This document shows, in pieces, positions 45,801-64,000 of a stretch of DNA of 64,000 nt. The notes under the pieces are model-generated. The model did no database searches and had not been told where the DNA came from. It worked only from the letters and a program-made list of their open reading frames with translations. The translations under genes and the position numbers were made by a program. The stretch covers positions 1,240,001 through 1,304,000 of the forward strand of contig JAMYGW020000005.1 in assembly GCA_025617375.2 (NCBI GenBank), in the 5' to 3' direction. The DNA comes from Acarospora socialis (taxonomy: Eukaryota > Ascomycota > Lecanoromycetes > Acarosporales > Acarosporaceae). Position 1 is the first letter of the stretch, and the number at the start of each line of letters is the position of its first letter.

Positions 45801-46786
45801 GGTCTGAATCCACTCTCACAGGCCAAACCAAGGAAGACTACTTAGGAGATTTGCTACATTCACGTCTCAAAAGTCTGCTCTTCGCTAAAGTAGAAAACCG
45901 TCAGAGTGGCCTTCAAAACTTCCAGGTTCTATTGCGCTTAGACAATACTGCAGAGTGCATAAACTATGTCGATGAGGCTGGAGCTACTCTAACTCATCGA
46001 GCTACGCAATCCCTGGACTCAGACATAGTGACTTGGCTGCTGGAGTCTGGAGCTGATGCAAGCATTGCCTTCACTTCTGGGGGTACTTCACTTCTCCCAT
46101 TACAGATTGCTTGTCTAGTGGGAAGAAAGATCTGGGCATATCTAACGGTCAGAGGTCTTCCAGAAGGACAGAATATCAGAGCAAAGGCTTTGATAATTGC
46201 CTCAGAGCTTCTTCGATGGCACCATGCTAGAGGTGATTCCCTGTTTGAAGGAGTGACCATACTTCACCTTGCCTCGTTCCTGATGATGTCCGAGGAGGTA
46301 GAAAGACTCATAGCTGTTGGCTATAACCGCATGGCGAAAGGTCGTTGGCCAGGCACCAATCATGATGTCACACCACAAGAGCTACTGAGTGCGAGCCTCA
46401 ATGATGGAGCCAGCATAATGGGCACACTTGCTCAATCTTATCGACCTGTTGGAGATTCACCATCTTTGGATGATGACTTTTATGATCTATTGCGTCTGGA
46501 TTATGACTTTTCAGATTCAGATGACTCGGACACTGACTTTTCTGGTTCACTAGATTTGGACCCTGAAACTTTGGAGCTGGCAGCAAGAGATTGGGACTCT
46601 GATTTCACAACATCACGGGACTTTGTTGGGAATTATAACTGGGACTATGCATTGGAGAGGGACATTCGTTGGCAGAAGCTTGGGAGGTTGCCATCTTCAT
46701 TCTGGGATATACCAAACTTACAACACTTTCTTATTCTAGAAGTCAAACAGCACGTATGTAGTCTTCTCTTAGATCATGATCAATAG
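42898..46786 (+). CDS. Protein kinase - Sel1 - ankyrin repeat protein
   Basis: Large multidomain protein, 1278 aa, two exons: 42898-43976 and 44029-46786. The intron (GTAATC, branch GCTAAC, ending ACCAAG) joins the two long frames. Residues 45-340 are a protein kinase: glycine loop GIGGFATV (~56), AVKQ with the ATP-binding Lys77, HGDIKTQN with catalytic Asp187, DFG at 208-210 and APEI, so it looks catalytically competent. A Sel1-like segment lies at ~470-515 (VFGFGVDISVTDAVFWLHHA). Ankyrin repeats lie at ~595-690 (LTSLHLAALIGDNTLLTTLL, GLSAVHYACIGGHLSTLEIL) and again at ~1000-1060. The C-terminal ~100 residues are very acidic with DSD/DFS repeats. It heads the accessory island. Substrate and partners are unknown; a role in recognition or stress signalling is inference. 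Confidence 0.85.
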
Positions 46787-47082
46787 TTGGTCTTTTGGTG
46801 TATATGACGCCGATCAAATATAAGAACTATTGAACCTATTGAAAGGTAAAAAGAATACTCGTGCTATGCTGCTGGCTAACTGCCTATCTAGTGAAATGTA
46901 CACCGTCAACTTGACCATGGTCAACATGAGTTGTAGAGGTTAGTCTTCCGCATAGTCTGATATGCAGACTATGTGACTGATGAGCAACCCCTGACACTAG
47001 TCCCAACTAAGACTATGGAAGCAGCTAGAACACCGCACTTCTCAACAAGAATTAGAGTATTGTGACATGAAAGTACTTTGCA

Positions 47083-47497
47083 TCAAGAGCTTGCGCCATA
47101 TGGTTCCCGTTTTAGGTACTTCCCCTCCACTAATTCATTGTATGGAGAATTATTGATCTTCCATTTGAGTTCAAATATGTCATTGGGATGTGCTGCAGTA
47201 ATAATGAACTCGCCAAGTGGTGCCCGGAACTCTGCTTTAACAATATAGACTGTGTCATTAATTTCAAAGGGGAACTGAATAGTAGCTATCAGCGAAAGAT
47301 TATTTAAAGATTGCACTCAACTCCTTTATGGAATCAAATACTGACAGAAGTGGTATTTGGGTACTGGCCCACGTAAGCTCTTTGGTCGCGTTCATCTTCA
47401 ACCAACTTGCACATAACTTAGTTAAATAGCTTATACCTCAATAATGATACACACTTACCTGGCTCCTATCGCTTTTACCATCTAAGTGATTGCTCAT
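47083..47497 (-). CDS. Small orphan protein, 101 aa (three-exon model)
   Basis: Tentative model on the minus strand: exons 47497-47459, 47405-47342, 47285-47083. Joined, it reads from MSNHLDGKSDRSQLVEDERD through TTIQFPFEINDTVYIVKAEF to a stop after REPYGASS. The first intron has a good GTAAGT donor and a TAACTAAG branch; the second has a weak GTATTT donor and CTGATAG acceptor, so the middle join is uncertain. Composition and residue pattern look like a folded beta-rich protein, but I recognise no family. It lies in the accessory island between the kinase-ankyrin gene and the DUF6594 gene. Alternatives are a longer gene with missed exons, or a decaying one. Confidence 0.4.
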
Positions 47498-48147
47498 ATC
47501 GGCTGTCTCCAATAGAAGTGTTACCAAATTTTCACCGGTGCTTTTGTCTTATGGCAAGAGAAATGAGTTTTAGAGCCTCATGGATAGGTCTGCTAACAGT
47601 ATGTTGGAATTAGGAGGCTCTTTAGGAGTTCAACCCTATCTGGCCTGGTGTCGGGATCTTCCGTGTCACGTGATATCGCTTAGTCATCACGCACAAAAGT
47701 TATCCTTTGTATATTCTAGTCTTCTAGATAATTAAAACACCTAATATCAAGCAATAGAAATGTTCCAATTCCAACACAGTATCTTGGACACAAGATATAT
47801 TGAATACATGTTGAGACTACAACAGTAAGAATATGAGGCTTAGTTGTAATAATATTGAGGAGCTGAAAGAGAAGAGAGGACTTAAATCGTTAGATTAGGA
47901 AGGAAATGTGTCAGGCCTGCCCGCCTGCCTGCCAAGACTGCTGCCTGCCTGCCAAGCTTGCCAAGCCTGTATCTTATATATGGCCCTCTGTCAGCTGTGA
48001 GAACTCTGTTTGGCAGCTTACAGCTTTATGTCTTTAGAGCACCCTGCGACTAGCTGCCATAACACGTACGACAACCTTCTATTCTATCTTTGTGTCGGCT
48101 ATCACCTCCTCCTGAGCTGTTGTAAGGTTCTTCTCTGTGACACTTTG
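47498..48147. other. Spacer with GCCTGCCT simple repeat
   Basis: 650 nt with no coding signal. A GCCTGCCTGCC-rich microsatellite with GCCAAG interruptions spans about 47,912-47,970. A TCACGTGA palindrome lies near 47,665-47,672. Confidence 0.4.
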
Positions 48148-49953: not shown

Positions 49954-52297
49954 TCAGGGCCCTTCGCAAAGAGGCTGCCATACTTGCTGCCGAATGACCC
50001 TTTGAAACTGCCAATCCTCGTAATCCCTCCAATTCCTTGGGTGCAGGCAAGTTTCAACGGCGCTAGCAAATTTGGATCCAGCTGCATGCGCCAGCTTTGG
50101 ACATGCGGTTTTGAGATAGAAATCAAGTAATCTCTGCGGAGCTATCCAGCTAAAGTTTTTCTTCTTGCTGTCTAGGGTAGAAAGCCGTCTCCACAAACCA
50201 ATTTCAAGGAGGAGAGTACCCTAATACGACATTAGAATGGACAAATCCTGGAGACTGTCTTTATGATTCCAAACTTACTAAGGCATAGATGTCGTGATGC
50301 CTTTCATAGCGAAGAGGTTTTCCCCACCGATCTGGATGCATGTAAATGTTATTTTCGGCGTTGAAGTTAGCTGTGGACCATGTCTCAGCGTCGGATGGGC
50401 GAGAACAATCGAAACCAATCAGGTACGGGCGCTTAACATCGTATGCCTCGTGAGATATTCCGTCAGCATGCGGCGGATTTTCCCGGCTTAGAAGAATGAT
50501 GTTATCGGACTTAATGCCTTTGTGGAACCATCCGATGGAATGAAGATGTTGGATGGCTTCACAGAGACAACTTGCTAGACGGTAGCGAAGCTCCAAGGGA
50601 ACAATTTTTACCTCCTCCATAAACTTGGATAGGATGATAACACTTTGATCTCCTGTATCATGGGGTAATTGATAAATGAGGCCAAAGCGCCGTCCGTGAA
50701 GCGTCTCGTGTAGGTAACCCTTTCCGGGCAAGATTCGGAAAGCCTCGGTTTTCGATTCTCCTAGAAGAGCAGCTATCTTTGCTACCTGACTACCAATCCG
50801 CGTAAAGTCCTGCTGGGAGACGAATTCATAGTGCCAATATTCGACAAGAACAGGGGCTCCAGCTTGTTTTCCAAATCGTAAATGCTGCCCTGCTTGTGCT
50901 CTGTCGTTAAAGTCAACTCCGGTCATGTCTTGGCGCACTTCTTCTTGAAGCAAACTTAGGCGCATAGCGATTCGACTTGCCAGATCTTTGATACCATATG
51001 CGTCTCCAACACCGAAGCTTTTGAGTGATTGTGGCTCTAGGGATGATAAGGAGTCGGTCAGAAATGTGATAAGCTCTTCGGATTTTTGATTGATATCATT
51101 GATAATTTCCGTCGTATCGATTTCCGAAAATTGGGAGGATTCTGGCATGTACAACGCATCCTTCAGAGCATCCAATAGCTTCATTGCTTCTTGTCGCCCT
51201 TGGCTGGAAAGCAAAGGAAGAGTACCAGATGAGATATCCTCATGAGGGCTCATGACTGCCTGACCGAGGCTCTTGACCGCCTCCGCTTGAGAGACTGCTT
51301 CCTCAATGACCTGGATATCTTGAATACTAGATGGGGAATCCCGAGTCATCCATCTCGTCAATGATTGCCTACCGCTGGCATCTAGCGGGCCAAATAAGGA
51401 GAGTCGCAGAAACAAAGATGCAGCATGCTCCGCTGTAGGGCGATGAGATGGCGTGACTGTGCATTGTAATGGAAGCGTAAGATTTTTCCACCTAGTGAGC
51501 CGAATTCTCCCAGCGGAATGATCCTCAGAAAGCACAGCGTAGAAGGGTTGTTTGATGAGCCCAAGGTCTGCTCTAAGCATACGGTTATGAAGACCTGGAA
51601 TAGTCACGGCATCATCCTTTTCCAATATCTTCACCAATTGATTGGACAAAACTTTGGTGAAGGAAGGTCGACCAGGGTAATTGCCAGTCGGAGTAAACTG
51701 ATCTTTGTCCGTCGCTGCTAGAAACTCGATATTATGTGCTGAACGGGATCGGATAGCCTGTCCAGCATAACAGCAGTCAAGGAATATGACTACATCACAA
51801 TTGGCGTTGAGAAAAAGAGGTTGGACGATGGACCAATCTAAAGTTGGGCCACCTATAATTTTCCTGGATATGAGAAGAGTAATCAGTTCGAATTGTCCAT
51901 AATAACTACTTGAAGAAAGGAGCATTCCTTACGCAGACCAGATGCACTCTGTTCCCTTTGCTGGCCCTCCGTGTCCGCCATAATACACCAGAATTAGATT
52001 GTCATCATTGCGACCAAAACTATCAATAAACTGGGCGACACGCAAGACCAACTGTGTCTGTGAGTTTTCTGAAGGAATATGATAATGCCAGACAAAATAA
52101 GCAAAGCATTCCCGAAAAACTTGTTTTAACTGATTAACCTCATCCGCGATTTCTAGATCGGTATCTTTCCATGTCAATAGAAGTACGTTAATCGCTGCGT
52201 AGCGTTGAGTACGGCGTAGACGGAATTGTGATAGTTCGGAAGAAAGGACAGCGACATGCTCTTTTGGGCCTATGACAGAGTTGGGAAGTTGTGACAT
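49954..52297 (-). CDS. Caspase-like protease fused to a C-terminal pseudokinase
   Basis: 738-aa fusion in three exons: 52297-51933, 51863-50279, 50220-49954. Residues ~30-270 are a peptidase C14-like domain: NVLLLTWKDTDLEIADEVNQ, the His motif YYGGHGG (His109) and the Cys motif FLDCCYAG (Cys153), so the catalytic dyad is intact. Residues ~320-470 are helical (LLDALKDALYMPE, IKDLASRIAMRLSLLQEE). Residues ~470-735 form a kinase-like fold of the kind found C-terminally in fungal prion-inhibition/HeLo proteins: WFHKGIKSDNIILL replaces the HRD loop and lacks its Asp; PYLIGFDCSRP stands where DFG would be. It is therefore read as a pseudokinase. The first intron is in frame without a stop and its removal restores IWSAKIIGG. 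Such domains occur in fungal cell-death and non-self recognition proteins; that role here is inference. Confidence 0.85.
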
Positions 52298-53169
52298 ATT
52301 CCTCAAAAATCATCGATGGTTTTTGGGAAAGTGTTTCTCTATAATATGCTCTTGCGTATGTAGGCTCGTAGGTTTGTTGAAGATTATCGATATTGCTGCT
52401 ATTCAAATGCGAAGGATGGTGTAAGGCTGGGTTCGCAGATACAATGATCAGTAGTGGTATCTCTACCGGAAGTGCCTAGTCGCTCCGTACTCGTAGCCCT
52501 GGTGTTCCGCCGGAGGGCTTGGGTATGCCTAAGCACCTTCTCGAGTGAGCCTTGTGCTGTAGGATGAGGATACGTTCCTGTATAGCTACCCTGACGTAAT
52601 CCTAATGTATGCCCTTCTTGTCCCTTCAATATCCCCTTGTAGATCTGGAAACGCTATTCCAATCCCCAATGAGAGATTGGATGCCGATGAGTGCGGGGAA
52701 GGTACTCTCGTCGTGGCCCTGTCGGGCTTCAGTAGTACCCTGGCCTGACGGTCCCGGCTTCAATACTACTGTTCTCTTGGTGTTCCCTGGGGTTGCTGAA
52801 TGACAGCTGACTCCTTGAGAGCATCTGATCAGGGCGCCATTGAGGGTCCTGCTTGATCTCTGCTGACAGTGTTTGACAGAATGTCTGGCAGCTACTAGGC
52901 AAGCAGGAGGACTGATTTCAGTAGGATAGGAGATGATCCTTTGCGTTATGATAGCGTATACTCATTGTGTATCAACTACGCCTATTTTCTTTAGGTGGTT
53001 GATTGCTACAGAACTACTTGTGGGAATGCCTTCTACTATACAGGGGCTGCGCTCGGACAGCGGCGCTATCGCCTAGGTCACGACATCGGAGCGATGGGAT
53101 TCCGTCCCGGAATCCTTCCATACCTCATATCAGGGCCGCACTTACGGTGGACGATAACGAGGTTACCGA
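52298..53169. other. Spacer at the edge of the AT-rich block
   Basis: About 870 nt of normal base composition with no recognised gene. Open frames at 52629-52399 (minus) and 52609-52803 (plus) overlap and look non-coding. It should include the promoter of the caspase-pseudokinase gene. CpG and GpG are common right up to about 53,169. Confidence 0.4.
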
Positions 53170-54699
53170 CACATCAAATTTTTTTTGAATTTTCACAAAC
53201 ACATAAACATAGATTGTAGTAGAGAAATGATGATCTGTAAGTAAGTAATCAACATCATCATCATTGTACAAACAAATCAATCATCTACAAAAATGTCCAC
53301 TTCTATTTCAGTAATCAATGATATAGTGTAAACACAGAACAACAAAATAAATACTTTTTAATATAAAGACTGATTTGAGAAACTAATTGTACAAAAATAT
53401 ATGACAGTGAATTTTAATTTGACATCACTCAGACACAAATTCTGAAGAAGTGAAAAGATAAAAAAAGAATAAAACTGTGATCAGAAAAGAATCAGATGAT
53501 GATTTTAATACTGCAGCAGACTTTCTATATTGAAGTTGTTATTATATAATTCTAATTTGTACAATCTATAACAATATACTACATTATACATCACTGACAT
53601 CTTTCTAATGAGAAAGAGAACAAGAAAAAATGTAATTCTTTAAATTATAATAAATTGTTGAATTAATTCATAGATTCTACAAGCTGTACAGTTTTATTAA
53701 ATGAATAATAATGAAGTTCTTTGTACAACTGATGCTCTGCTTTTTATTTAATTTTATTTTTATTTTTACTTTCAGATTTATTACTATCACAGTTTTGATC
53801 ACAATCATCATATAAGTATACAGAAATAGTTTTAATACATTGATGTTAACAGATTGTATGATGTAGAACTCTTATTATATACAATGCAATCATTACTGTT
53901 GCTGCTGTTCAGCAGAATTCTGTTTTCTTAGTAGAACAGTAACAACTCATTTTCTTTGTTCATAATTCACAAAGTAAAAGACTTCTGATTCTTTTTGAAC
54001 AATTTGTGAAGTTCATATGAAATGTAATTACTTCACAGCAGATTTCAACACATCATTCTTTGTACATCAATGACATTCTCATTCAGTTTTGTAAAAAAAA
54101 TCAAATAAATATGCACACAGTGTATATCAGTTTTAAGATTTTTTTCAGAATGTTGTTGCATTGCAGAACATTTTGATGAAACATGTGAAAACTGTAAATG
54201 ATGTGATCATGTAGTTTGCTGCTTTGTATAAAATGACAATGAAAATGCTGTTGATGAAAACAATAATGATATTGTAATAGTTAAAGAGTATCACTTAAGT
54301 TTAAATTCTGAATCTGTTGAACATAAAGATGAATTATCATTGAAGAATGCTATTGTATTGTGATAAATACATACAAATTTTTTTTAATTTTCTTGTTGAT
54401 TTTTGTTCTTTACTTCTCATCTAATCATATAAGTTGTTATGATATCTGAGTAAGACTTGTACTTCTTTGCAGTGCTTAGAATTAATAGTCATATCAATAA
54501 TAAAGTTAAGCAAGTCAGTAAATTAGATTTATAATCAATATAATTGTATTCAATTTGTACAATACTGTAGTTCATTGATATTATAGAAAGAAAATCAATT
54601 TTCTTGCTTATGTAATAATATACACAGTCACAATTACACAAATTTTAATTTTTAAATCATACAAATAAAATTCATTATTCACAATGTCAGCACAAGCTG

Positions 54700-56200
54700 T
54701 AAATCTTGACTTCTGCAAAGACTATGTCATATAGCTGTTTTAAGAAAATCACTTCAGTCAAGATATTAACAGAAAACTTCAAGATGAGTTAAACATTATC
54801 TGCAGTTATTGTATAATTGAGTGAAGATTGTAAGAATAATAAATTTTAAAGAGAATCAAAATCATTGACACTTCTGAACTACAAATTAAGATTGTTACTT
54901 TGTTTTATAAAACATGTCTCAATAATGTTCAAATACTACATATATTGCAGAAGAAAGAACATGAAATTGAATTACATGAAATTGTACAATTACAAAAAAA
55001 GATGAGAATGATTCATCAACATTCTCTGTTTAACATTGAAGAAATAAAAGAAGAGATGACACAGTTTGTGTTGAAAGAGTTGAATATTGATGTTATTGAT
55101 GAATATGAATGAGAATTGCTTTATACTCACTTTTATACAAAAAAATTCAATATCTATCAATATATCATTCTAATTCTATTTCTGATCACTTTCTGACATG
55201 CTGTATTAAAGATTATTTGTTTAATATGATTAAACATTTAAATTCTCAAGATCACATTTGTCATACAAAAAATCTTCAATGTCAGTGTGAAGAATATATT
55301 GTGCTGAGATTCAATTATTTATGATCTATCAATGATCATAACAAACTGTCTTGTTAAGACATCAAGATTTATGCTGAAATTGATGTTTATTTTAAATACT
55401 TATCATAAATTTATATTGATATATTAAATTATACAACAATCAGTGTGCTCTGTCAGTATCTAAATGTTGTTTACAATCTGAAAGTACATTCTTAAATTTT
55501 GTGCTCTGATTGAGACAAAAAAACATTATTATGTGTGAAAGTTCATTATGTACTGAATTATACAACTGCAAATGAACATACACAACTATCAGAGATTTAT
55601 TTCTTTGATATTAACACTGTAAATCAATAAATTGAAGCTTGATGAAGTCAATTGATCAAAAATTAACTGTTTTGATGACAGATAAGTTATTTTTATGTTG
55701 ATATTACTTTATACAATTTATTAAGTAACTTGTACAGACATTTTTCAGAGATCTTATGCAGCAAGATCTTTAAAATAATATTAGTTTTGCAGACTGCATC
55801 ACATTAATGACACTGTATATGTTCATCATTTGATGAGAAGTTTATGATTATATGAAATTATAAAATGTTCATCTTATATAAAAGCAAGCAAATCAATCAA
55901 ATTCAGTAGTGAGTAGTTCATAAATGTTATATCATTGTTCAGAAATTATCAACACTGAGAATTATGTGTTAAGAGTGAATGAAGAAGTAATGATAATTAT
56001 GTAAGCATCATATAATAACTGAGATAAGTCTTCATCACAACTAATTGTACAATAAATACTGACTAAAAAGATGTTGATGAATATCTTTCTGCAGCAACTC
56101 TTAAGTGATATACATTACAATTACAAGCATTGAACATAGTTCTGAAAAATGTAAAAGTGAAAAATGTTCTTGTTGATGATTCATGATGTTATATTGAGAT
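54700..56200 (+). mobile_element. Possible DDE/rve-type recombinase fossil
   Basis: Plus-strand fragments in this part resemble an integrase-core (rve-like) recombinase, the clearest being near 55,330-55,660, where spaced pieces recall the conserved core and an N-Q-x-I-E-A-like block of such enzymes. The copy is heavily broken, with many breaks. Ends, terminal repeats and exact superfamily cannot be told; the bounds are rough. It could be a DNA transposon or a capsid-bearing element relic. Confidence 0.3.
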
Positions 56201-56939
56201 ATACAAGTAATTATGTATTATTGTATAATCATATATTGTCTTTAAAATACATTTAATTCTGACAGAATCTGCTAAATCTCATAAAAGTTATGCATATTAA
56301 AATAAAGAACTGATTGAATGTAATGAACATCATAAGTTAAGTGAGAATTTTGTATGAAATGATGATGAAGCAAGTTTTGTTGAGAATGAGACACTCATTA
56401 ATGTTAACTCAAAAGATATGTTGAATGTCTATCTTCAGAAATTGTGATTCTTTTGTTTGTAAATCTTTGTTTTTTTTAAATAATTCAGATCATATAAAAT
56501 GATTTCTTTATCATTATGAAATTCATGTTGCATTCTTAAAGATGTTGTGCATTTTACTGAATATCTCTTTGCTCAATACAAATGTGAAACTGATCTTGAC
56601 AGTTACATAATAATGAACTTTAAGAGTTGAAATGCATAGATAGAATTGTCACTAGTCTTTGCAAAAGAAAAAGTGTGTGCTTTTATTTCTTTGTGAAGAC
56701 TGACTTACTAAACATACTAGCTATGTGAGATCTTACAAAAGAATTCTAGTTCTTCACAAATCAGAGTGAACTTACAGTTATTTTTTTTCTTATGTGCTGC
56801 ATTCTCATGACACTTATCTTCAGCTGACTCTCTGTTGAAAAAACTTCTTGATGAAAAGAAAAACAGTGAGTAAAACTTCTTCAATATTCAAAATTCTGTA
56901 GAAAAAAGAAGTACTGAAATAGTTCTTCAGCTCATTTTA

Positions 56940-57670
56940 ACTTAATTAATATTTTGTGATTTAGTCTCAGTATTCTGTGAACTTATGTCAATGCTTTATG
57001 AATTTATCTCAATACTTCATGAACATTCTTCAGTGTCTTATGAACACTATGTTTCATGAATCTTCTTTGATCTTTTGTGAACAGCTCTCAATGTCTTACA
57101 ATCATCTACAATGTCTTGCAGATCTTTCTTGATACTCTGTGAACTTACTTCAGTGTTTTATAATTATTTACAATATTTCATGAATCTTCTTCAGTGTCTT
57201 GTGATCATTTCTAATATTTTACAGATTTTCTTCAGACTGTTGTGAATATTTCTGATGTCTTGTGAACTTATTTAACTGCTGTGAATGTTTCTGATGTCTT
57301 GTAAACTTACTTAGTTGCTGTGAATGTTTCTGATATCTTGCAAGTTTACTTAGTTGTTGTGAACATCTTTAATGTCTTGTAAGCTTATCTAACTGTTATA
57401 AACATCTCTAACATCTTATAATCTTATTTAACTGCTGCAGACATTTCTAATGTCTTGTGATCTTATTTGACTGTCACAGACATTTTTAATGTCTTATGAG
57501 CTTATCTGATTGTCACAAACATCTTTAACATCTTACAAACTTACTTAACTGTCACAAACATTTCTAATGTCTCACAAACTTATCTGACTACTGTAAATGT
57601 CTTTAATGTTTTACAAACTTATCTGACTGTTGTGAATGTTTTTGATGTCTTGTGAACTTACTTAACTGTG
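56940..57670 (+). repeat. Degenerate minisatellite, ~19/39-nt units
   Basis: From about 57,236 to 57,665 a ~39-nt unit recurs about eleven times, close to GCTGTGAATGTTTCTGATGT followed by CTTGTAAACTTACTTAGTT. From about 56,950 to 57,236 a related, shorter ~19-20 nt period (TCAATGTCTTGTGAAC-like) recurs. Copies differ mainly by C/T and G/A, as expected if an originally GC-richer tandem repeat was mutated along with the rest of the block. Non-coding. Confidence 0.75.
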
Positions 57671-59599
57671 TCAGACAAGTAAATAATTTAACTGCAATGA
57701 AATGTCAAGACTTTCTGTTCACAACTGAGTAACTTTATCATTATAATTATAATGAAATCTTTGTCAAGTCTTTCTGCTCATGACTGAGTAAGAATTTCTG
57801 AGTGAAATGTGAAAATGTATTAAAAGTGAATGATTTCAATTTTTTTGCATACAAAATGTATGTCTTTCTAAACTTTTTTCTGTACTGCAATATTTGTACA
57901 TGCAAAATCAGATCAAATATAGTCAGTGAATAGTTATGAAGAAACTCTTCTTTGATTTATGCTTAAGATGTCATCACTGAGTATGTGTAAGTGATTTGTT
58001 TTGAACTTTAAATCATAAGCATGTTGACTAACACTGTGAGTGTTAAATAACTAAATAATGACTCTTTACTTTGTGAATATTCAGCAGTTCTTGAATTTAG
58101 TTGCTGATTTAAGTTTCTTTGATCATATACTGACTGATCACAAGACTGCTCTCAGTGTGCAGTCTTTGTGAGTACAGACTTTGAAAAATGAATATGCATT
58201 GAGAAATTAATCTTAACAGTGTCAGTACTGAATCACTGATGCTTTGTTATGTCTTGCACACTGCAAGCATTATAGACAGATTGTTTTAATTGTTGAGATG
58301 AATGTTATTTGCATTTTGAGATGTGTTGTGTGCACTTTCAACAGTAAAAAAAAGAAGATATTTGCAGAATACTACAGCAATGTCTCAAACTATATTCAGA
58401 AGTGTGCAGATTGTCTTTGAACTGATTGTTTTTGTGTTTCTGATGTTGTACTGTCTCTGTTTGTTTTTATGTTGTTATTTTTATCTGTTTTTATATCATC
58501 ATCATCATCATCTGCTCTGTCTGTTCTCACATTATTCTCTACAAATAACACAAAAGAAAAAAGTATTTCTTCAGAATCTGATTTGTTTTTTTATCTGACA
58601 GTGATTATGTACATTAACTTTAATAGTGTTGCTGTTTCTTTTTCTCAAATTGTTATCTCTGAGTTCAGTGTTGTCATCTTTGCTCTTTACATTGTTGCTA
58701 TTTGTTTCTGCAAAGCTGCATACATTGCAGACATTAAACTATCTTATAACAGTTTGTGATCAGAAAGAAACTTCATAAATGATGAAGAATATAAAAACAC
58801 TTCAATAAATCATGATTAAAAGAACAGAGATGTCTCTCATCACTATGATAATTTATTTTCTCTCTTTCTTCTGTAAGTTTCTTTCATACTGATATAATTT
58901 AGAGTATTAATCTGAACAGCATCATTGATCAAAGAAAATAAATCAGCTCTATCTTCTTCAACAAAAGAAAATATATTGATCTTTTCTTTCTTCTGTAGAT
59001 ACTCTTTAATAAATATAATTCAGAGTACTGATCTAAATAACATCATTTGTAATTAAAGAGAATAAATCTTCTTCTTGCTTCTCAGTCAGATATGTGCTGA
59101 CTTCTTTATCTGATGACATTATCTTCAAATTATTCTTCTTGATTTTTTGTGAATTTTCTGAGAAGTGCAAACAGTGAGAGTACATTTGTCAATACTGCTA
59201 AATTCTCATCACAGATCTATTCTGTTAAGCTTTGCTGAGTTTTTTTGATCAGTATCTTGACTTTTTGAAAATCTTACAGTGTCAATACTCTGAGTAAAGA
59301 ACACTTGCAAGAGTTTGCACTTCTATGCAGTATGAGTGACAGTAATCTTTGTGAGTGAGTACAAGAGTGAAATCAAGTCAGACTTTAGTTCTTTTGAGCT
59401 TTGTGAGTGTTGACTTAAACTTGTTGAGATTTTTCTTGTGAAATTTGTTAATTAATCTTTAAGCATTTTTCACATTAACTTCTGATTTTCAGATTAGATC
59501 TGTGTACTTTTTTCATGCAATTTGATATTACAATGTTGACTGTTCATCAGAAGTTATTATGATTTGCAAGTTCAGAATAGTGATGATTTCATACTCATA

Positions 59600-62500
59600 A
59601 AAATCTGAATTTATCACTAAATGTAAAGATTTAAGTTCTAAAGATTTGTCATCTTTGCAGAATCTATAAGCTCAAAGTAGACTGATATGAAAGACATCAT
59701 GAATATTAAGAATCTTTAACAGCTTTAACTTATAAATCTGATTTTTTATCTGATCAATAATTCTATAAAACTTATAATATAGTCAATTCAGCTTCTGCAA
59801 GAGTCTTTTTATGAATATGTTTTTAATATGTAGTTAGATCTTTTGTTCAAGTTTAAATGTGATGTTTCATCATTTCTTATCATAGTACTTCTTCTGATAC
59901 TCTTAAACTTTTATGAGAAATCTTTGAGTCTCTTTGTAACTGATGCAAAGTTAATCTGCAAGAGTTTCAGTTTCTACAGAGTTATTTTTCTTTACTGTAT
60001 ATTTAATCATCTTGTTTACAGACAACAGATTGAATCTTGAATGATATTCATAAATTATCTCAAAAGATGTCTTTTGAATTGCAGAATGTCTGCTTGTGTT
60101 GTATGTGAACTTCATCAAGAACAATAGCACTACTCAGTTATTTTACTCATAATTAACATAACTTCACAAATATTGTTCAAGAACACTATTCTGATGCTTT
60201 GTCTGCTCATCAGTTTGTGAATAAAAGACAGTGTTTAGTTGCTGCTTAATCTTTAAAGTATACATCACATTAATTCAGAACTGCAAAATAAACAGTGATT
60301 CTTAATTTGACATTATGACAGTTAGAACTCTGTGTAAATGAACTATTTTCTGTACAAAGATCTCTGTGAGATCTTTTGTGATTATGTTCTTTTGACATGA
60401 AATATAGTGATACATCTTTAAGAATTTGTCAATCACATTCAGAATTACATCATAAATATCTTTATAGACTCTGCTTTCTGACAAATCTATAATGAAGTTT
60501 ATTGTGATTATGTTTTAGAATCATGTAAAGTATTTTAAAAGCTGTAACTATTCTGCAGACTTCTCATGAATTATTTGTGTCTTTAAACATACAAGACAGA
60601 ATAAACAATAGTTCTCAATCTGTTTTTTCATCTCTGATCATCAGTACTTCTTGTGAACTTATACATAGATTTAATCTGTGATTAAATGTTCTATGAGAAA
60701 ATCATTGTGATGTTTTCACAATATCTCATTATACAAAGCTTTCACATGCAGAATATACACTGCATTATTGACATAGAGAAGATCTCTCATCTGTATTCAG
60801 TTAAGATATTGACTTTTTTTTTTTGATGTCTCAACAGTCTTCAGACTCTGAGTCATCTTATTTGTGAAAAAATTTATTTGAAAATACTTTGATAGACTTT
60901 TTAGAAGAATCTTGCTCACATTTTCATATGTGACTTTCTCTGCAGCAACTTTGCAAACTTACTGTCTATGATCTTTATTCTTTTGACTCATGCAATCTGC
61001 ACTTAATAGCTGTCTAACTTACATACAAATCTGAATGTGCACTTTATAACTTACACTTACATTCTGTTCATTCTCTGCAGTAGTCATTGCTGTTGAGAAC
61101 AGAATCTCTTTTAATGTTGAGTGATACTTCATGATAGTATTTTCTGCTTCAATCTTTTGTTAATAATTGACTTTCTGAGATGATCTGTTCACAAAATTTA
61201 TAATTTTTTTGCAGTACATCATACAAAAGTTGTATGCTGATAGTTGCAGAACTCATTTTACATGTTTTTACAACAACTTATGAAATAATTTCACTATCTG
61301 ATGCAGATTATCATGATTTGTAAGAATCTTAACTGTGTGTTTTGTCTCTTTGAGATAATGTTGTCAGTGATGAACACTCTCAACTATAGCAAGCAGCTTT
61401 TCATCATCAGTTTTATAGTTTCTCTTCACAAATATCATCTTTTATGAGTAGTACACAACTGATTTTTAGTCATCATGTCTTTGCATTAAAATGTCAAATA
61501 TAATAAATTCTGAGACATCTGTCTTTACTTGAATCTCTTTTTCTGAGTCAAAGTATCTCAGAAAAGATGCTGTTGTAAAGATCTTGATTAGTTTGTGAAA
61601 AAAATGTGCAGTCTTTGAGATCAGAAATTCTGATATTTGTGAAATCAGTTTTTTCTTTGAAATGTCTTCACTGTCTTTCAGCATGCTCATAAACTTCACA
61701 ACAATACAGAAAAATTCATTTATAAATCTTCTATAGAAGTTCATGAAGTCTATAAAGCTTTAAATTTTGAAAATACTTTTCAGCTCTGATCAGTTGAGAA
61801 TTGTGACAATGCAATCTTTTTTCATTTTCACTTTTTTGTCTGTGATGATAAATTTCACAAAAAATACTCTTTTCACAGAGAACTGACACTTACTGAGCTT
61901 TACATACAGTTCTGCTTTTAAGAGTGCTTCTAAAATGATGTGAATATGTTATTTATATTTATTTTCATTTTTAAAATAAATCAGAATGTTGTTCAGAAAT
62001 ATTATTACAAAGATATTTAGATACTTGTGAAGTATCTCATGAATGTATGACTGAAAGATTGTTGATGCATTGATTAACTTAAAGAGTATCATTAAGTACT
62101 TATACAGTTCATATTAAGTATAAAAGACTGTCTTTCATTTGTTATCTTTGCAGATGCAAATTCAGTAGTAAACATTCTTTATATCAATCTTTGTGAAGAT
62201 CTTGATTTCATTTACTCAATTCATGATTTTCTCAATTAAGAGTAAAAAATAACAATTCTTCACAGTAACTGCATTGAGTTTGCAGTAATCAACACATAGT
62301 TGCAGCTTATCATCAAACTTAAGTGCAAATAGCACTGATGTTCTCACAGAAGACTGTGAGAACTGAATAAAATCATTTTTTAAATTTTCATTCAGATATC
62401 TTCAAAACTCTGTGAACTTCTTTTCTGAGAGATTATAGATAGAATTGAAGAGTAAAGTTCATTCATTAATTAAGTTAATAACATAATTCTGCTCACAGTG

Positions 62501-64000
62501 CAGAGACAAGTTATTAACTTTGTTTTTTAAAAACATTTCTGCAAGATCACAGTACAGTTTTGAAATTTTTATTTGAGTTATATCACTCTGATTTTTCACA
62601 TACTCTATGCAGACTTGATATATCTGACTTAAATCTTCAAACTTTAACTTCTTTCTGAAAACTTTGAGATCTAATTCATCATTATTCTCTGACTTTACAG
62701 AGTCTTTTATATTTTCTTTTCAAATGAAAATTCACTGAAAATAACTTATTACTGAATTTCTTCAGATCAGTCAGATCACTTTAAGTATTATATTAGATTT
62801 TATCTCTGCAGTGATAAGAGATTTGTGATGTTTACAAGTCTTCTTATTATTATTGTGAATGAAGATCTGTTCATGATACATATTATATGTAATCATCAAT
62901 TATTGATTAATATCAACAGCATCTCTTGCAGAAAACAGAAATACTAAATTTAAAATTATAACTATATTTAGATGCAGAAAGTTGATATCATTTTTGCTGT
63001 TCATTATTGTTCATAGTTTCTGCTTCACAAGATATATTATAATTTATAGAGCTTTCTTCTTGAAAAGATTCAACTGAGAGAATTCATACATCTTATATAT
63101 GATTTCTTTCTTAAAAGACTCTGTCTTCACAGACTTTTTCTTTGTCTTTTCAATGATATTATTCTTCTTTGAGAATTATATACTCTGTGAAAGCTTCACA
63201 AGCTTTTTTTGTTTACAGCATCTATAAAAATCTTATTTTTCTTGATGCTTCAGCAATCTTTTGTGAGATGATCAATCTTGTTACAATTGAAGCACTTAAT
63301 AGATTGATTTCTATTATTCTGAGAAGCTTTTTTCTCAAATCTTGTTGTAGACTTATTGTTAATCTTTTAAAAAGACTTGAACTTCTTTTGATAGAATGAT
63401 GCTCTTTTTTGCTTACAAAAAAATAAATTGAACTGTAATTTCTTCACAAGAACTATCATGTTCTTTTTGATATTAGACAGTTCTGATTATTCACAAATTT
63501 TTTTGTGCATGAGTTTGTTCAGATCACAATAAAAGAGTATGATTTGAATTTTGTTCATCTTGTTTACTTTGCTTTTTATCTGAAATTGAAGTTCATTATA
63601 ACAATGAAGATATTTCTCATCTGACTTTTTATCTCTTTTACTTGCTCACAATCACTTTATTCAGATATTATGAGTTTGATTTGTTTTATCTTTTAACAAG
63701 TTCTTCAAGAATTTTTTCAAGAATTTTCATTCTTCTGTGAGCTCTTTCTCTTCATAATATGTCTTTTATTGATTCATAATGAAGTAGTGTAGATAATAAA
63801 TCATCTCTGAATACTGAGTCTTCTTTAATATGTTCTCTGTATCAATATTTATCTGATGACAAAAATTACAATAATAACTGTAAATACTGTTCTTATAGAG
63901 ATCTGCATCTGAGAATATCTTTATGAATTAAGTTCATATAACTTCACAATTTATCTCTAGATCTGCAGATTCAGAGTAATTATATTTAATTTGTGTGCAG
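59600..64000 (-). mobile_element. Ty3/gypsy LTR retrotransposon fossil (partial, runs off the window)
   Basis: Minus-strand fossil in normal gypsy order. A gag zinc-knuckle of CCHC type is visible at about 63,255-63,300. Reverse-transcriptase blocks lie at about 61,900-62,450, followed by the segment joining RT to RNase H (about 61,470-61,745). Integrase core pieces lie at about 60,050-60,500, and chromodomain-like remains may reach 59,600. The 5' end lies beyond 64,000. No LTR could be recognised. The copy is clearly broken, with dozens of breaks, and shows the CpG/CpC-depleted signature of the whole block. It was probably mutated quickly rather than slowly, since motif spacing is well kept; age cannot be fixed. 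Confidence 0.8.

Follow-up and report, generated by a model that had tools for sequence, protein, structure and literature searches.

A repeat-directed C-to-T mutation that prefers CpG and CpC in Acarospora socialis, probably a new variant of repeat-induced point mutation

The ascomycete Acarospora socialis very probably possesses a defence of the repeat-induced point mutation (RIP) type, which turns C to T in repeats and strongly (8- to 20-fold) prefers CpS (C followed by G or C) over CpW (C followed by A or T). The window analysed here is a 64,000-bp stretch of contig C5 (JAMYGW020000005.1, positions 1240001-1304000; the assembly has 31.1 Mb in 38 contigs). Its last 10.8 kb belong to an element with terminal inverted repeats and have lost nearly all CpS. 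This reading is carried by near-pure C:G/T:A differences between repeat copies, by the CpS preference, by mutation that is complete in old copies and partial in young ones, and by a mutated zone that ends at the repeat border. Such a homology-guided mutation with CpS preference is probably a new variant, and one transposon of the genome, a long interspersed nuclear element (LINE), appears to have adapted to it.

Between 53170 and 64000 of the window, CpG and GpG are absent (202 and 198 expected), and CpC occurs once, at 53,297, against 205 expected. Across 300 mononucleotide shuffles of this sequence (53173-64000), counts never fell below 174 for CpG, 168 for CpC, and 158 for GpG. An earlier note on this DNA, made from the letters alone, had described CpG and CpC/GpG as wiped out in about 10.8 kb with GpC still frequent, and the counts agree on both points (GpC 199, expected 202). 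CpA and TpG reach 1.49 and 1.57 times their expectation, and TpA 0.67 times. The remaining window, 1-53169, is ordinary (CpG 0.90, CpC 0.98, and GpG 0.97 times expectation). Within the window, the CpS-null stretch by dinucleotide counts runs from 53173 to 64000 (no strand assigned), and the same null composition continues for the next 14.8 kb, to C5:1318804.

The same loss is found across the genome. The counted set consisted of the block and 28 of the 30 loci that match the first probe, 152,569 bases after removal of overlaps. CpG is absent from this set (2,867 expected), CpC occurs 34 times (2,834 expected), and GpG 47 times (2,902 expected), while GpC is found 3,073 times against 2,867 expected. 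The GC content of the mutated repeat loci is 25-31%. The earlier note had named depletion of CpA and TpG in repeats as evidence against its reading; instead, CpA stands at 1.47, TpG at 1.48, and TpA at 0.64 times expectation, the opposite of the usual CpA preference, as the note had supposed. The two remaining loci, L026 and L031, were excluded after their CpGs (15 and 6) had been seen; their matching stretches contain no CpG, CpC, or GpG in 761 and 401 bases, and all 21 CpGs lie in the flanks. Only the first 4,750 bases of locus L036 were counted. Locus L031 (C19:95136-98536, 24% GC) carries 6 CpG and 19 CpC/GpG beyond its repeat match and may represent an older or different class of AT-rich DNA.

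Sixty 1-kb tiles, placed by hand every 0.3-0.8 Mb or so, skipping the repeat region of C1 near 2.7 Mb and sampling small contigs thinly, fell into two classes. Four were null (0 CpG, 0 GpG, and 1 CpC in 4 kb) and 56 were normal. Very roughly, and with a wide error, 7% of the genome would be of the null kind. The one null tile of the four that was checked for repetition gave 50 matches, mostly to its bases 369-1000 or so. Another tile, L112 on C16 (181,804 bp), has 37% GC and 28 CpG, and this contig carries reverse-transcriptase matches.

Alignment of repeat copies reveals the direction and context of the changes. All pairs among 16 aligned copies of a nested Gypsy-type part of the element (described below) differ by 52,733 transitions and 1,738 transversions, and with 56 of 60 tiles normal, C:G-to-T:A change is confined to repeats, as in RIP in the broad sense. 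Most single differences among these old copies are C/T before T or A. In columns with an invariant next base, T stands in 28% of the cells at CpA and in 35% of those at CpT, corresponding to 0.33 and 0.43 hits per site. Mutation exclusively at CpS, with CpA and CpT wholly spared, is contradicted by this alignment, in which CpT and CpA differences are the commonest. The survival of CpA and CpT described in the earlier note is therefore real in composition and incomplete in fact. In the old copies, the CpS class is saturated and the CpW class is half-way.

The young LINE family shows the process before completion. Fourteen copies were compared with three intact copies (L038-L040) as the reference. 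The mutated fraction was 424/1646 (0.258) at CpC, 29/140 (0.207) at CpG, 150/4466 (0.034) at CpT, and 147/5812 (0.025) at CpA, the lowest of all contexts. Since many changes are common to copies by descent, a separate count took only those seen in a single copy: 12/98 at CpC, 31/4141 at CpT, and 33/5721 at CpA, with no CpG countable, against 22/21499 private T-to-C changes in all contexts. CpS is hit 8- to 20-fold more than CpA and CpT, and CpC and CpG serve equally well as targets, although the CpG figure comes from few sites. Tabulation by the 3' neighbour, as proposed in the earlier note, thus places CpC and CpG far above CpT and CpA. CpS is the preferred target, not the exclusive one, and mutation driven to completion describes the old copies and not the young ones. 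The 5' neighbour has a small effect (A 0.19, G 0.28, C 0.28, T 0.31). The completeness in old copies needs no special device: with CpS preferred ten- to twentyfold, hardly any of it is left by the time CpT and CpA have received the hits noted above. The stop codons reflect the same preference: TGA, which arises from CGA and TGG, accounts for 418 of the 499 stops within 150 listed reverse-transcriptase matches.

At ancestral CpGs, the change fell on one strand about as often as on the other. In 178 CpG-type column pairs of the 16 copies, 2706 cells comprised 1152 TG, 1130 CA, 424 TA, and no CG; the pairs counted vary both as C/T and as A/G with at most four gaps, and CpGs resolved alike in all copies are missed. 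A 39-bp tandem repeat of 11 units (57236-57664, plus strand) shows the same TG/CA resolution, with six column pairs varying solely as C/T then A/G.

We read the whole block as probably one element bounded by inverted repeats and carrying a nested Gypsy-type long terminal repeat (LTR) element. The outer element spans 25.7 kb (25.66 kb), has terminal inverted repeats of about 490 bp, and has no strand assigned; its left part occupies 53143-64000, and the rest continues outside the window to C5:1318804. The earlier note had placed the block at 53170-64000, and that interval is null, although the element starts at 53,143, keeps its first 30 bp unmutated, and runs 14.8 kb past the window. By blastn against the joined block, the left terminal inverted repeat (53143-53633, plus strand; 491 bp) matches C5:1318804-1318288 in inverted orientation at 76.9% over 519 columns, with 70 transitions and 24 transversions. 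Further copies of 53300-56300 show 86-88% identity over long stretches among the matches listed. Two 3-kb probes from the block each gave at least 43 matches including the block, many near full length at 79-88%. The putative Gypsy-type LTR retrotransposon, itself mutated, begins at 56574 and fills the window to 64000 on the minus strand, as judged from self-comparison and direct repeats. Its direct repeats of about 200 bp (56574-56774 and, just beyond the window, C5:1304505-1304702) differ by 22 transitions and no transversions, and 60000-63000 has at least 19 further matches longer than 1 kb. A fragment of its RNase H region lies at 61469-61744 on the minus strand (PF17919 RT_RNaseH_2, E 6e-7, 29.9 bits against a cut-off of 29.8). 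A search of the inverted-repeat element with the KDZ transposase profile PF18758 gave no match, and the control genomes likewise gave none.

The mutation follows the element, tapers in its last 50 bp or so, and hardly leaves it. The outermost 30 bp (53143-53172, plus strand), with four CpGs, keep CpG, CpC, and GpG in this copy and are partly mutated in others, as a comparison of ten ends revealed. Seven other places carry 30-35 bp of this terminus at 97-100% identity; four of them lie directly beside listed element copies (C1, C12, C5, and C10:406654), and the other three coincide with the expected position of the opposite end of a listed copy. Among the ten ends, all four terminal CpGs are kept in four, three in two, one in one, and none in three. 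Neither subset is unbiased: ends L116-L118, chosen as unmutated, keep 12/12, and ends L119-L123, those not found in that way, keep 7/20; the two ends of the element in the window keep 4/4 and 0/4. One more CpG, 30-55 bp inward, is kept in the three chosen ends. Deeper inside, stretches of about 160 bp from the ten ends contain no CpG, and CpC is present there in two. Just outside, the flank keeps CpG in eight of ten ends and CpC/GpG alone in the other two; the right flank of the window element (C5:1318805-1319400) has 4 CpG and 38 CpC/GpG in 600 bp. The edge pattern fits, without proving, a process that would need homology on both sides of the target. Spreading chromatin would be expected to cross the element border, unlike the pattern seen.

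In the proposed mechanism, pairing of homologous copies would trigger mutation, and a cytosine methyltransferase with a strong preference for its 3' neighbour would carry it out in repeated, probably premeiotic, rounds. A PF00145 profile search of the assembly gave three loci. The DIM-2-like gene encodes a methylase domain, DUF7893, and a BAH match just below the cut-off; its protein has 9bap as the best PDB match (E 1.3e-191), and its named homologues are called 'DNA methyltransferase Dim-2'. The second gene, which encodes an SPPCQ motif and probably has a single intron, we take to be of the RID/Masc1 class from its layout and from general knowledge, no homologue being so named. The third locus (C8:612909-621500; L003, L115) has a methyltransferase followed downstream by an SNF2 match and by RING matches below threshold, a layout like that of DNMT5, which would thus coexist with RID- and DIM-2-like genes. 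No break is evident in the three genes. The nearest named homologues come from Pleopsidium flavum, a lichen fungus of the same order (Lecanoromycetes, Acarosporales), at 62% for DIM-2 and 51% for RID, and a RID piece of Blastenia crenularia matches at 62% over 25% of the query. The search for RID and DIM-2 homologues called for in the earlier note was thus productive. Its contrast of a DIM-2-like or Masc-type activity with a RID-like one is not supported, since all these gene types are present and Masc1 and RID form one class (PMC4352252). The RID/Masc1-like protein is the most likely agent, with odds modestly in its favour, and is ranked first because the mutation pattern follows the repeat ends. 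DIM-2 would be a clearly less probable agent, and joint action of the two is another alternative.

The strongest rival is passive loss, in which repeat cytosines methylated de novo by DIM-2 and maintained by DNMT5 would deaminate spontaneously with no active mutator. The DNMT5-like and DIM-2-like genes, the nearly independent strand choice at each CpG, and the CpG-only depletion of some DNA speak for it. The rates argue otherwise. Transversions between Gypsy copies amount to 0.0053 per site for each pair, and no survivor among 2706 CpG cells means at least 6.8 hits per site (95% bound); per lineage, this puts CpG loss at 2,564 or more times the rate of transversion. In the LINE copies with the fewest transversions (L042, L043, L051, and L052), the ratio of CpC loss to transversion ranges from 289 to more than 384, and in L050 it is 507. 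Ratios this high would not be expected from passive decay of 5-methylcytosine. In human DNA, the CpG deficit is five-fold, according to a review (PMC13297926). Moreover, CpC and CpG are hit alike, which maintenance at CpG would not predict, and the mutated zone stops with the element within about 50 bp. We consider passive loss improbable.

A cytidine deaminase of the AID/APOBEC type, acting on repeat DNA or on retroelement cDNA, would account for C-to-T changes on both strands and for the involvement of LTR and LINE retroelements. APOBECs take their specificity from the 5' neighbour. Here the specificity lies in the 3' neighbour, the 5' base matters little (0.19-0.31), and the inverted-terminal-repeat element is hit alike, making this a very remote candidate. 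Classical CpA-directed RIP seen through later events could invoke the RID- and DIM-2-like genes and the 28% of CpA cells that are hit. It has next to no probability in view of the CpA and TpG excess and low TpA in the 152,569 bases, of CpA as the least mutated context, and of stops that are mainly TGA rather than TAA or TAG. A fault of assembly or base calling, or a contig of foreign origin, to which the artificial look of zero counts might point, is just as implausible, since the block lies inside a 2.39-Mb contig with normal DNA around it, the copies differ individually (most long matches at 82-86% among those listed, with TG or CA at the same site), and intact LINE copies of the same assembly keep CpC and GpG.

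Several points weigh against the preferred reading of a RIP-type defence. The outer AGG is unmutated in all ten ends while the terminal CpG is often mutated, and CpG and CpC may differ in their sensitivity to the edge. In the 152,569 bases, residual CpC and GpG amount to 1.2-1.6% of expectation while CpG is zero. The polarity of the LINE changes hangs on three intact copies, and many changes are shared through descent. In nine of the 14 LINE copies, CpC loss is just 19-134 times the transversion rate, as would be expected if these copies had also aged without mutation. Loss of CpG without loss of CpC/GpG, at 46001-48000 of the window and in the right flank of the element, means that a second, CpG-only process may add to the first. 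Long runs on one strand are also missing: adjacent CpGs share a strand at 0.534 against 0.511 in shuffled data (z 2.5), the excess is at most 0.03 at all distances tried, and no strand clustering was detected in any of 14 LINE copies (p 0.115-1.0). A processive action in strand runs was considered and rejected, as nothing was found beyond this small excess and a weak copy-wide TG:CA skew (p < 0.05 in 5 of 16 copies). Single RIP events in Neurospora are strand-biased. Many rounds, or a non-processive enzyme, must therefore be assumed.

Two neighbouring regions of the window deserve mention. At 46001-48000, CpG falls to 0.39-0.46 times expectation with CpC/GpG not lowered. Next to the mutated element, 50261-52306 contains open reading frames (ORFs) with near-normal CpG, which by eye resemble a gene of metacaspase/kinase type.

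The LINE that stays intact under this mutation encodes endonuclease, reverse transcriptase, and RNase H domains. Sixteen matches, including the probe, are 99-100% alike over 2.5 kb; some of them carry stops, and L039 is open across all 1,251 codons. Its third positions avoid CpS. At NNY codons, C is used in 107/211 cases before A and 49/131 before T, and in 2/123 before G and 9/106 before C; hence 11/229 before S versus 156/342 before W (p = 8.6e-30). The ORFs of the host show the same lean more weakly (797/1500 versus 757/1203, p = 3.5e-7). NCG makes up 0/167 of NCR and NGG 5/68 of NGR, and the corresponding synonymous fractions in ten host ORFs of the window are 0.47-0.68. The remaining CpS of L039 is largely required by amino acids: Pro codons account for 49 CpC, Gly codons for 44 GpG, and Trp codons for 30 of the 35 GpG at positions 2-3. 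Also kept are 30 GpG that span two codons and, at positions 2-3, 23 CpC. L039 is thus without nearly all the CpS that synonymous change could remove. Third-position C after a middle C, itself no target, is also rare (21/84 versus 135/258, p = 1.5e-5; host ORFs 203/309 versus 554/894, p = 0.25), and so is third-position G before G (14/83 versus 89/270, p = 0.005; host ORFs 196/385 versus 436/756, p = 0.03). This hints at selection to shed targets beyond mutational scouring, as far as a single element may tell. An arms race, in which a homology-guided mutator switched from C before a weak base to C before a strong base and the LINE recoded itself as a counter-defence by target loss, is conceivable, at somewhat less than an even chance. 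Shedding of RIP targets by elements has been raised as a possibility (PMC5381629). LINE copies that are 99-100% alike and mostly stop-free in the reverse transcriptase cluster at C1:2653837-2800452, C14:10709-86139, and C10:186223-200943, regions that may be centromeres or sites favoured for other reasons. How a transposon can survive such a defence is suggested by the intact LINE.

CpG loss is known from Coccidioides. Other ascomycetes share CpG as a main target with A. socialis: MATE elements of Aspergillus nidulans show a bias to CpG and then CpA (PMC2621366), RIP at CG is predicted in Uncinocarpus reesii (PMC4165359) with a reported rise of CA and TG (PMC7862722), and Tuber melanosporum is described as mutated at CpG and then CpA (PMC4352252), but as without RIP in another source (PMC4165359). 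A. socialis differs in being hit equally at CpC and in having its CpG driven to zero. Elsewhere among fungi, RIP-like mutation is reported at CpG in basidiomycetes and at CpA or CpT in others (PMC2621366, PMC4352252, PMC4165359, PMC5381629, PMC8016269). CpC-to-TpC is a formal class in RIPCAL, and S. nodorum repeats are CpC-depleted alongside CpA dominance (PMC2621366). In the literature covered in part (CpC with RIP or methyltransferases, Onygenales, lichens, and target-depleted elements; subscription papers lie outside it), CpC was not found as a main target of repeat mutation, nor zero CpG on a comparable scale.

The nearest sign of a CpS bias comes from Rhizoctonia solani AG8, where CpC and CpG are the commonest C/T contexts (one per 214 bp at CpC, 370 at CpG, 422 at CpA, and 491 at CpT, not normalised), a pattern its authors interpreted as CpG bias (PMC4014442). 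This fungus is a basidiomycete, however, and the changes are heterozygous single-nucleotide polymorphisms in genes and repeats alike, far from completion (PMC4014442). In Microbotryum, mutation at TpCpG is likewise CpG-based and in repeats, and live elements persist (PMC5381629, PMC4352252). A. socialis differs in that TpC is not required (CpG is gone after any base, and T is just slightly the highest of the 5' neighbours), CpC is hit too, and the host, an ascomycete, carries a RID-like gene. Methylation without mutation, as in Ascobolus, does not describe these repeats, which are mutated. The Dim2-dependent mitotic C-to-T change of Zymoseptoria tritici links repeat mutation to a methyltransferase, as proposed here, but more than 98% of it is at CpA, not CpG (PMC8016269). 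In Cladonia rangiformis, likewise a lichen fungus, strong RIP goes with RID, DIM-2, and sharp borders between genes and transposable elements, as here, whereas most of its transposable-element sequence has 10-20% GC against 25-31% in A. socialis; the words CpG and dinucleotide are absent from that account (PMC12542154).

Standard RIP indices would not recognise this mutation. The limits quoted in PMC3828140 are 0.89 for TpA/ApT and 1.03 for (CpA+TpG)/(ApC+GpT), and the block scores 0.73 and 1.50. Surveys based on such indices would miss it, because the block counts as not RIPed. It is not known, according to PMC8016269 and PMC13297926, why RIP prefers a given dinucleotide, and RID has not been shown to be active in vitro. 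Near-saturated repeats together with young copies in progress make per-context rates measurable in A. socialis. RIP in Neurospora crassa and most Pezizomycotina, which involves RID and DIM-2 and acts on CpA, shares with it the C:G-to-T:A change, the restriction to repeats, the sparing of genes, and the RID- and DIM-2-like genes. In A. socialis, by contrast, CpG and CpC are preferred, CpA is lowest, TpA is not raised, there is little spread into flanks, and strand choice is nearly independent between sites. The opposite preference in a fungus with RID-, DIM-2-, and DNMT5-like genes amounts to a natural swap experiment.

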